Assembly (NCBI RefSeq): GCF_037076455.1
Contig: NZ_AP028679.1
Location: 201,501 to 265,500, forward strand
From: Desulfoferula mesophila
GTDB lineage: Bacteria > Desulfobacterota > Desulfarculia > Desulfarculales > Desulfarculaceae
Direction: 5' to 3'
DNA length: 64,000 nucleotides
Position 1 is the first letter of the stretch. Each line of letters opens with the position of its first letter. This document shows, in pieces, positions 43,084 through 46,460 of the stretch. The notes beneath the pieces were generated by a model. It saw nothing but the letters and a program-made list of their open reading frames with translations. It searched no databases and was not told where the DNA came from. The translations under genes and the position numbers were made by a program.

Positions 43084-43374
43084 ATGTTTGAGACAAGAAA
43101 GGAGTTTTTACAGGAGTTCAAAAGTCGTGCTGGTCTGAGGTCCGTGGAGGAGGCTGACAGGCTAGCGCAGATCATCATTAGTCTTATCAAAGCTCGCATT
43201 GGACCTCGACTCTCTGAAGAGGTCGCTCGCATGGTATCCCAGGACCTGGCGTTGGGTTGGCGGAATATCGCTTTGCCCCAGGAAGCCATGGAAATGCAGG
43301 AGATGATGTTTGAGCTAGAGGAAGACAGCAGCAAAACTTCCCCCAGAGAAGAGTACCCTCCTGAATACGGTTAG
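43084..43374 (+). CDS. DUF2267-family protein
   Basis: 96-aa protein. The pattern EFLQEFKSRAGLRSVEEADRL followed by LIKARIGPRLSEEVARMVS fits DUF2267, a short helical family of unknown function. The last ~15 residues are acidic and proline-rich. GAGAGGTAAG precedes the ATG. Confidence 0.7.
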   Translation: MFETRKEFLQEFKSRAGLRSVEEADRLAQIIISLIKARIGPRLSEEVARMVSQDLALGWRNIALPQEAMEMQEMMFELEEDSSKTSPREEYPPEYG

Positions 43375-43496: not shown

Positions 43497-43808
43497 TTAA
43501 AAAGTCAGGACCTTGTCAGCCTCTTTGCTCAACTCATAAAGATCATCCATCCAGGCTATGGGGCAGGTACCCGATCCCACCAGACCGTGGGACTTCATGC
43601 AAACCCCTCACACATAGAAATCGCCTCCAAACTGGTTCATCTGACCCATGACATCGAATTCATCGCTGCCGCTGGTTTCAAAGGTAACTCCTTTGCCAAG
43701 CATGAACACGCTGACCTCATCACCCTTGTTTACTCCTGTATTGGCCAAGCGCATGGCATTAAAGATGGTTTCTCCGTCATCGGTGCTGATGATGAACAAC
43801 ACCTTCAT
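43497..43808 (-). CDS. DsrE-family protein, candidate selenoprotein (TGA = Sec67)
   Basis: 103-aa DsrE-like protein if the in-frame TGA at 43608-43610 is read as selenocysteine; otherwise a 66-aa product. The part before TGA starts MKVLFIISTDDGETIFNAMR and contains EVSVFMLGKGV. The part after, in the same frame, reads GVCMKSHGLV, then CPIAWMDDLYELSKEADKVL, which is the normal DsrE C-terminus. The TGA falls where the family has the first Cys of its C-G-x-C motif, giving Sec-G-V-C. A SECIS-like hairpin follows at the correct distance. GGGAG precedes the ATG and a consensus promoter lies upstream. DsrE-like proteins handle sulfur transfer; Sec versions have been described in metagenomes (as I recall). 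Confidence 0.8.
43575..43592 (-). promoter_or_regulatory. SECIS-like hairpin
   Basis: On the minus strand TCCCAC, loop GGTCTG, then GTGGGA: a perfect 6-bp stem. The loop starts 21 bases after the TGA. Bacterial SECIS elements have an apical loop with an early G at about 16-37 bases; the E. coli fdhF loop contains the same GGTCTG. Confidence 0.75.
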
Positions 43809-43888
43809 GGGCTTACTCCCTTCTTGAAAATTACCCACTCAACCGCTGCAATTGTTTTGTATGCCTTAAAAAATGAGCTAGTTACGTG

Positions 43889-43917
43889 ATCTTAGGCGGT
43901 TGAATTTTTAATGTCAA
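43889..43917 (-). promoter_or_regulatory. Sigma-70-type promoter of the DsrE gene
   Basis: On the minus strand TTGACA, 17 bases, then TAAGAT, about 80 bases before the start codon. The IS21 copy starts 17 bases upstream of the -35 box, so the promoter is intact. Confidence 0.72.
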
Positions 43918-44035
43918 TCTGGGGAAGGGAAACTGTGAATGGCGGAGTAAGTGCGGGACAGTTGGCGGTCTAAAACCGTGACACTTGTTTTAGAGATATA
44001 GTCCTGTTGTTCATGCTGTCAATCATGATCTTGCC

Positions 44036-44812
44036 TTAGTTGGTTTTGGGCTTTGCCTGGGATCGTCTTTTGGCTTGGCGGAGCCGGTAGCTTTCTCCAT
44101 TGGCCTCGATGATGTGGCACCTATGGGTCAGTCTGTCCAGCAGTGCACCGGTGAGTCTTTCGGAGCCGAAGACCTCCGTCCATTGCTGGAAAGGGAGATT
44201 GGTGGTGATCATGAGGCTTTGTTGTTCATATGCCCTACCCACCACCTCGAATAGCATTTGAGCGCCTATCTTGGAGAAGGGCACATAGCCCAGTTCATCG
44301 ATGACCAGCAGGTGTAGGCGCTGGAGCTGTTTCTGCAGGCGTTGCAGACGTCTTTCCTCGCGGCATTCCATGAGCTCTGTGACCAGGGCGGTGGCGCTGT
44401 AGAATTTCACCTTGCTTCCCTGGGCGCAGGCCGCAAAGGCCATGGCGCTGGCCAGGTGGGTCTTGCCGGTGCCGGAGTTTCCGATCAGGAGCACGTTTTC
44501 CTTTTTGGCGATGTACTCGCCCCTCATCAGCTCCCTGACCAACTGCTGATTGATGGAGGGCTGTGCCTTGAAATCAAAGGTGTCCATGGTCTTGATCACC
44601 GGAAAGGCGGCTTGCTTGATGCGCCTTTCGGCTGCCCGCTTCTCGCGGTCCAGAAGCTCCCGCTCGGTCAGGCGCAGCAGGTAGGTCATGTAATCGGAGC
44701 GGTCTTGGCTGCAGACCTTGGCCATGGCCGCGTATTCCCGGAGAATGGTGGGCAGCTTCAGCTTTTTGAGGTGGTACTCCAAGAGCACGGTGGGTTTGTC
44801 CTGGTCCTTCAT
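44036..44812 (-). CDS. istB: IS21 helper ATPase IstB (copy 2)
   Basis: 258 aa, identical to the first copy apart from His instead of Gln after the Walker A GTGKT. This is the usual residue in the family, so this copy is probably the ancestral sequence. It overlaps istA by four bases. Confidence 0.93.
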   Translation of the reverse strand: MKDQDKPTVLLEYHLKKLKLPTILREYAAMAKVCSQDRSDYMTYLLRLTERELLDREKRAAERRIKQAAFPVIKTMDTFDFKAQPSINQQLVRELMRGEYIAKKENVLLIGNSGTGKTHLASAMAFAACAQGSKVKFYSATALVTELMECREERRLQRLQKQLQRLHLLVIDELGYVPFSKIGAQMLFEVVGRAYEQQSLMITTNLPFQQWTEVFGSERLTGALLDRLTHRCHIIEANGESYRLRQAKRRSQAKPKTN

Positions 44813-46371
44813 GACAGCGCCCCTCCCTGCGCGAGGAGGGAGTCATAGACTGTGATATCGGGCCCGGCCACGCTCACTCGGCCCAGGTGCTCACGACCGT
44901 CCAGCAGGAAGGTGGCCGCGGGCCCTGATGATGGCGGCTCCAGCAGGTGGACAATGGCCTCCGGGGCATAGGCTCCCGCGTACAATGCCTGCTCCACCGC
45001 CCGCTTCAGTCTGGCCATGGAGTGGTCCTCCAGCAAACGTAGGACCTTTATGTATTTACGGGTGCCCTGGCCAGGCATGTCTTCCCCGGCCACCAGCCGC
45101 CGCCTCAAGACCTCAAAGCACTCAGACAGATCTAGGTCAGCCAGGGGGCGGGCGTGGTCCAGGGAGCCAGGCTTGCGCTCCAGCAAGGGCAGATAATGCC
45201 GGTAGTCGAAAAACACCCCTTCCTTGCCCCAGGATCGGGAGTGGCGGGCCACCACCACGTCATGGTGGCAGAGCACCACCCGATCCACATAGCCCTTGGC
45301 CACAATTTCATGGTGGGCACAAGCCACCGGCACCGAGTAGTCATTGTCGTCGAAGCGGACCAGGGACAATGAATTGGCCCGGGTAGGCTGTTTGCGGCAG
45401 GCATCGAAGCGGGAGGGAGGCAGGGGGACAAAGGCTGTCTGGTCTTCCTGCAAAACCTCGGCCTTGCTACCGCCCTTGCCACGCAAACGGCGCTTCATGT
45501 CGTCGCGGCACTGCCTTAAAAGCATGGCATTGAGCTCGGCCAGGTCCTTCACCTGGGGCACTGGCACCAAAAAATTCTGCCGGGCGTACTTGACCACCCC
45601 TTCCACCACGCCCTTCTCGTTTGGACGCCGCACCCGACAAAAATGCTCCCGAAAAAGGTAATGGCTCTGCAGCTTGAGAAAACCATCGGTCAGCTTGCGC
45701 TCATGAGGCCCTATGATCTTGGAAACCAGGACCTTGCTATTGTCGTAACTGATCCGGTGGGGCACCCCACCGAAAAACTCGAACGCCCTGGCATGCCCTT
45801 CCCAGTAGCTCTCGCTGCACTCCTTGTCGAAGGCCGCCACGAAAAAGGCATCGGAGTACGGCAAGGCCATGATAAAAAGCGCTATCTTGCGAAGCTCCCC
45901 GGAAACCTTGGCCAGGGCATAGCCAAAGTCCACCTGCGCCTCGCCGGGACGATGGACCAGGGGCATGTACACCTCCTGGCTCACGCGCTTGATTGCGCGC
46001 ACCGCCTCCTTTACCTGGGTGTACTTGCCCTGATAACCCGCCTCCTTGATGCGGTGATATATGCGCGTGGCCGTGTGCCTTTGCTTCTTGGGAACCTTTT
46101 TGTCCTCTTTTATGATCCGGGCGATCAACTCAAGGTAGGGGCCAAGCTTGGGCTTGGCTCGGGGGGTGCTGAGCCGGTATCCGGGAGGCTCGGGAAAATT
46201 CTGAATCTTTTGCAGGGTATCCCAATGGATGCCCTCTCTACGCATTAACTCGCGCTTGCTCGCCTGGCCATCGCGCAACTCAAGTCTGATCCGGGCCCAT
46301 TGATCCATGTCCGTGTACACCCCTTCCGCTCCTCCAGAGAGTCCTGGCCTGGAAGCCACCATGGCCTCCAT
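44809..46371 (-). CDS. istA: IS21 transposase IstA (copy 2)
   Basis: 520 aa, with the same reading as the first copy: N-terminal HTH, rve core with QVDFGYA, SYDNSKV and NEKGVVEG. It looks intact and, with its istB, could be active. Confidence 0.92.
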   Translation of the reverse strand: MEAMVASRPGLSGGAEGVYTDMDQWARIRLELRDGQASKRELMRREGIHWDTLQKIQNFPEPPGYRLSTPRAKPKLGPYLELIARIIKEDKKVPKKQRHTATRIYHRIKEAGYQGKYTQVKEAVRAIKRVSQEVYMPLVHRPGEAQVDFGYALAKVSGELRKIALFIMALPYSDAFFVAAFDKECSESYWEGHARAFEFFGGVPHRISYDNSKVLVSKIIGPHERKLTDGFLKLQSHYLFREHFCRVRRPNEKGVVEGVVKYARQNFLVPVPQVKDLAELNAMLLRQCRDDMKRRLRGKGGSKAEVLQEDQTAFVPLPPSRFDACRKQPTRANSLSLVRFDDNDYSVPVACAHHEIVAKGYVDRVVLCHHDVVVARHSRSWGKEGVFFDYRHYLPLLERKPGSLDHARPLADLDLSECFEVLRRRLVAGEDMPGQGTRKYIKVLRLLEDHSMARLKRAVEQALYAGAYAPEAIVHLLEPPSSGPAATFLLDGREHLGRVSVAGPDITVYDSLLAQGGALS

Positions 46372-46460
46372 CGCACCAAAACACCTGAAGAAAACTGAAT
46401 CAATGTGTCACGGTTTTCAACCGCCACTAAAATCGTCTCGCTTTTGGACCGCCATTTACA

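Follow-up and report, generated by a model that had tools for sequence, protein, structure and literature searches.

The minus strand of the window, by which we mean the whole 64,000-nucleotide stretch of Desulfoferula mesophila DNA analysed here, encodes between positions 43808 and 43497 a DsrE-family protein in an open reading frame of 103 codons, the sole interruption of which is an in-frame TGA at 43610-43608. The frame opens with an ATG (43808-43806), has 66 codons ahead of the TGA and 36 more behind it, and closes with a TAA (43499-43497). Translation through the TGA yields MKVLFIISTDDGETIFNAMRLANTGVNKGDEVSVFMLGKGVTFETSGSDEFDVMGQMNQFGGDFYV-U-GVCMKSHGLVGSGTCPIAWMDDLYELSKEADKVLTF, with the predicted redox motif U67-G-V-C70. 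As the preliminary description, which names no strand, had proposed, the TGA takes the place of the first Cys of the CGxC motif, and Cys-containing homologues align there. The features of the locus are as follows:

43497 to 43808, minus strand: DsrE-family selenoprotein gene, TGA as predicted Sec67, TAA stop (translation; Pfam DsrE, 41.1 bits; full-length conservation in relatives)
43608 to 43610, minus strand: in-frame TGA, codon 67, predicted selenocysteine (TGA in 110 of 111 relatives placed by tblastn; TGC or TGT in distant homologues)
43599 to 43601, minus strand: codon of Cys70, partner residue in U-G-V-C (translation; nearly invariant in the alignment)
43575 to 43592, minus strand: bacterial SECIS-like hairpin TCCCAC-GGTCTG-GTGGGA (fold, uniqueness in the window, synonymous constraint, covariation)
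43816 to 43822, minus strand: Shine-Dalgarno-like AAGGGAG (sequence)
43889 to 43917, minus strand: sigma-70-like promoter candidate TTGACA-17-TAAGAT (found by scan with 10 of 12 matches, against a chance expectation of 0.6)

The Shine-Dalgarno-like sequence is situated 7 nt 5' of the ATG, so that the ribosome-binding site is in place as described earlier. Of the consensus promoter that had been claimed, less is left: the scan does find a site with 10 of 12 matches at 43917-43889, outside the IS21 inverted repeats, but chance alone would supply 0.6 sites of equal quality in the region scanned, and the candidate is therefore weak and was rejected as significant. The selenoprotein gene stands alone beside an IS21-family element located directly upstream (43963-46426, with IstA at 44809-46371 and IstB at 44036-44812), the 22-bp inverted repeats of which lie at 43963-43984 and 46405-46426. 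Downstream are a small ORF (43084-43374) with a weak match to DUF2267 (21.7 bits, under the Pfam cut-off) and an HU-like ORF, the latter judged by eye from its translation. With these neighbours, and with no dsr or tus partner gene adjoining it in the window, the gene does not form part of a DsrEFH or TusBCD locus.

The Pfam DsrE profile (PF02635) matches the predicted product with 41.1 bits (cut-off 22.7) over residues 1-103; the family thus runs on across the TGA, and its C-terminus follows in frame, as had been noted from the sequence. The AlphaFold2 model has a mean pLDDT of 94.7, and the top PDB matches found with Foldseek are YchN (TMq 0.75), the Swol_2425 DsrE protein, Allochromatium vinosum DsrE (TMq 0.82) and other DsrE-like proteins. 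Both the score above the Pfam gathering threshold and the fold place the protein in the DsrE/DsrF-like family. In a profile search, Sec67 was aligned with a Cys of YchN. Escherichia coli YchN (1JX7) and A. vinosum DsrE (2HY5_A) thus share the fold of the window protein, but have Cys where it has Sec; moreover, the A. vinosum protein is a subunit of the DsrEFH heterohexamer, and nothing at this locus points to such a complex.

The host genome, a single contig of 4.48 Mb, encodes a complete set of the selenocysteine components that the preliminary description had suggested looking for, namely, tRNA-Sec (71.8 bits; cut-off 47), SelA (612 bits), SelB (393 bits) and SelD (377 bits), which excludes the objection that the genome might be devoid of Sec machinery. 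The frame of SelD (G000:C1:3726958-3727884) itself contains one TGA, a feature of many Sec-type SelD proteins.

Downstream of the codon-67 TGA, the hairpin TCCCAC-GGTCTG-GTGGGA (43592-43575) has a 6-bp stem that starts 15 nt past the TGA and a GGTCTG loop that starts 21 nt past it, exactly as first described. The window contains 2053 TGA triplets, counting both strands, and this is the only one followed at 11-21 nt by a 5-6-bp stem with a GGTCTG loop. The local folding energy taken alone, by comparison, is ordinary (z -0.84 against shuffles) and was discarded as a significant feature; the evidence for the hairpin is its conservation. In the 86 aligned genes, the codons that form the hairpin hardly vary (Ser73 TCC in 75/76, His74 CAC in 82/86, Gly75 GGT in 79/86, Glu77 GAG in 53/53 and Gly78 GGA in 74/77), while Gly codons elsewhere in the gene are mixed (GGC 210, GGA 146, GGT 123, GGG 119). 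The hairpin positions are frozen at the synonymous level, although the amino acids permit alternatives. Across relatives, 86% of the stem cells hold standard pairs, a proportion that falls to 57 or 35% when the 3' arm is shifted by one base; it should be noted that the unshifted arrangement has an advantage here, the structure having been defined on the window sequence itself. Double-changed stem cells number 12 compared to 3.7 in shuffles, and none of 500 shuffles reaches as high, an excess that kinship among the sequences can bring about without any structure. Additional compensated stems (CCCGC/GCGGG and CCCGT/ACGGG) are found in L149, L150 and L144. Many relatives share a Glu77 variant that places an A-A mismatch beside the loop-closing pair, so that the SECIS tolerates a broken pair. 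The element has the make-up of a bacterial SECIS, that is, a hairpin close downstream of the UGA with a conserved GG in the apical loop.

The same arrangement recurs in the relatives of the gene. All 14 matches from the class-level search have the in-frame TGA (one has an extra TAG). Across 395 genomes from the phylum, one TGA is present in nearly every close relative of full length, the exceptions being broken copies (as in G328). Codon 67 is a stop in 110 of the 111 loci placed by tblastn and Trp in one, a count of loci rather than of organisms, given that some loci from the class, phylum and further searches share one genome. The Trp locus is apparently L132, seemingly a broken copy in which a TAG occurs early and TGA is absent. 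Downstream of the TGA the family C-terminus is intact, and Cys70 is nearly invariant in the alignment. Many homologues at about 38-50% identity lack the TGA; those that were fetched, at about 37-49% identity, have TGC or TGT at codon 67 and are without the GGT-loop hairpin, in line with the comparison to Cys homologues that had been advised. In contig L144, a Sec copy and a Cys copy lie side by side. In a tree of 51 sequences, all 33 of the present Sec type fall into one clade with support 100/100 and the Cys sequences remain outside, so that the Sec-DsrE family, as judged from these sequences, is one well-supported Sec clade. That the TGA is a true stop or a sequencing error, leaving a pseudogene or a 66-residue protein, is very improbable, because relatives keep the TGA, which is common to about 100 separate assemblies together with the conserved downstream frame and hairpin. 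The UGA is thus flanked on both sides by conserved protein and aligned with Cys in homologues, as in selenoprotein genes, and we put the probability that this is a functional DsrE/DsrF-like selenoprotein gene, with predicted Sec67, at about 0.93. Actual insertion of Sec, the substrate and the partner proteins we infer.

Four copies (L018, L103, L132 and G310) have an extra in-frame TAG ahead of the TGA site. Pyrrolysine at this codon was considered and rejected: no PylS profile match above the cut-off was found in the respective genomes, and these copies are therefore more likely broken or the result of assembly errors.

A redox-active Sec in a sulfur-transfer protein had been called notable, which is too strong a statement, because DsrE-like UxxC selenoproteins form a published family. 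The Sargasso Sea study of 2005 counted DsrE-like UxxC proteins among its new selenoprotein families (PMC1088965), a DsrE-like selenoprotein was found in Desulfovibrio vulgaris in 2006 (PMC1794560), the GOS data yielded the DsrE-like selenoproteins DsrE 1 and DsrE 2 in 2008 (PMC2398784), and DsrE-like UxxC selenoproteins are included in a 2026 review (PMC13188914). The window protein resembles the published ones in its PF02635 domain, the UxxC motif, the hairpin after the UGA and its host, deltaproteobacteria being among theirs; we assign it to the DsrE-like UxxC selenoproteins by family and motif (PF02635 and Sec-x-x-Cys). Since DsrE proteins with selenium were already reported in 2005, the gene adds a good new example to a known kind. 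What the present analysis contributes is the single Sec clade and a link to Tso clusters, the latter being the part worth following. Under the ordinary code, the reading breaks off at the TGA, so that only a truncated ORF, or none at all, results; in sulfate reducers and their relatives, genes of this type are therefore easy to overlook or to annotate wrongly.

In DsrE and TusD, the Cys at the equivalent place is the sulfur carrier, on which basis we propose that the protein probably functions in Sec-based sulfane-sulfur or disulfide exchange; the 'sulfur-transfer' role would follow from its family. In the proposed mechanism, the hairpin immediately 3' of UGA codon 67 would direct SelB and Sec-tRNA to read that codon, yielding a 103-residue protein with Sec67-Gly-Val-Cys70, in which Sec would occupy, within the DsrE fold, the site of the conserved sulfur-carrying Cys of DsrE/TusD. 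The Sec could then attack a persulfide, polysulfide or disulfide to form a selenenylsulfide or similar intermediate, with Cys70 as the putative resolving residue, and the protein would thereby act in sulfane-sulfur or disulfide exchange in an anaerobe.

An alternative is a role in the metabolism of selenium instead of sulfur, with the protein carrying selenium in the manner of YedF, a TusA-DsrE fusion, beside SelD. Indeed, the DsrE half of YedF (TIGR03527), which has a CGxC motif (PMC5322559), is the nearest and the sole NCBIfam match, at 20.3 bits, and SelD and YedF-like genes, both recognized by eye from their sequences, lie nearby in 3 of 83 neighbourhoods. However, the YedF cut-off is 110 bits, and the window protein, far below it, comprises only 103 residues and has no TusA domain, for which reasons membership in YedF was rejected; YedF, furthermore, has Cys where the window protein has Sec. 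Linkage to SelD is rare, and a selenoprotein required for the synthesis of selenoproteins would be unusual, although SelD is one. We thus regard a role as selenium carrier as unlikely, and retain sulfane-sulfur or disulfide exchange as the preferred function.

The genomic surroundings of the relatives suggest a refinement, more than a rival, of this function. Neighbourhoods mostly differ among relatives, and one conserved operon for the whole family was rejected on these grounds. When neighbouring frames were read through TGA, with families named by NCBIfam, multi-selenoprotein clusters emerged in several relatives with the recurrent order ArsR-type regulator, TsoA (with a LULAXC motif), TsoC or TsoX, and Sec-DsrE; examples from several Desulfobacterota genomes include L056:5147-5596, L056:5649-5900 and L079:5733-5984. 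The Tso operon of three selenoproteins (TsoA, TsoB and TsoC, with TsoX) has been published (ref. 64 of PMC13188914), and in the table of that review DsrE is absent from the three members that give Tso its name. TsoA is present in 10 of the 35 genomes that encode Sec-DsrE, compared to 4.0 expected (Fisher p = 0.003, in a test that ignores shared ancestry), and in 8 of these 10 the TsoA and Sec-DsrE genes share a contig, no more than about 2.5 kb apart. Further DsrE homologues adjoin TsoA in G205, G412, G321, G429 and G359. This placement, in part of the phylum, suggests a shared redox or sulfur-relay pathway.

One could accordingly picture Sec-DsrE as an accessory of a Tso-type system, in which TsoA, TsoC or TsoX, and Sec-DsrE under an ArsR-family regulator would form one relay acting on sulfane sulfur or on a thiophilic toxicant; the copy in the window would then be stand-alone or orphaned. 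The gene order and the excess of TsoA speak for this possibility. Against it, 25 of the 35 Sec-DsrE genomes are without TsoA, co-occurrence with TsoX is not significant (p = 0.41), and related genomes are not independent. The genome of the window is itself no Tso genome: it contains neither TsoX nor TsoA, which the same search does find in relatives, and for TsoB only partial matches below the cut-off. We consider the accessory role somewhat doubtful. As a tentative proposal of about the same standing, the Sec-DsrE clade may recur as a hitherto unnamed member of Tso-type clusters in Desulfobacterota, where a chain of at least three selenoproteins (TsoA, TsoC/TsoX and DsrE) would pass sulfur or electrons under an ArsR-family switch, and genomes like that of the window would keep DsrE alone. 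About 100 relatives with hairpins, together with the link to TsoA clusters, offer a concrete start to the question of what selenium is needed for in a sulfur-relay protein.

As for the origin of the window copy, the protein is 90% identical to that of strain NaphS2 (79% at the DNA level) and groups with it in the tree. Its identity to the copy in a same-genus genome (G045), compared with this, is only 55%, and no copy of this Sec-DsrE type was found in the remaining genus-mates searched, a pattern that would fit horizontal transfer some time ago. A search with the flanks for an empty insertion site in genus-mates gave partial matches only. Carriage by plasmids was rejected, as the plasmid-borne matches are only haloarchaeal DsrE homologues, about 37-42% identical. 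Four relatives, L104, L110, L118 and L128, share the gene that follows directly downstream; it encodes a QueH-like protein of 200-230 residues (judged by eye).

At still greater distance, TGA reappears in a remoter set of homologues (about 30-37% identity) that constitutes a second Sec subfamily. The genome of the window also encodes a second DsrE-like ORF (L025/L151, G000:C1:2249282-2249599) with an in-frame TGA (..LAAUGKCMGIHGVD..) and a hairpin of its own, ATCCACGGGGTGGAT; at 32% identity it represents a separate Sec subfamily, which is also present in genus-mates and in G042. Finally, a TGA-bearing DsrE homologue without the second Cys (..YGUKKALKMHGVH..) is encoded at L143:4436 (G429:C1:149842-150153), where a Cys copy lies upstream of it and TsoA is close by.
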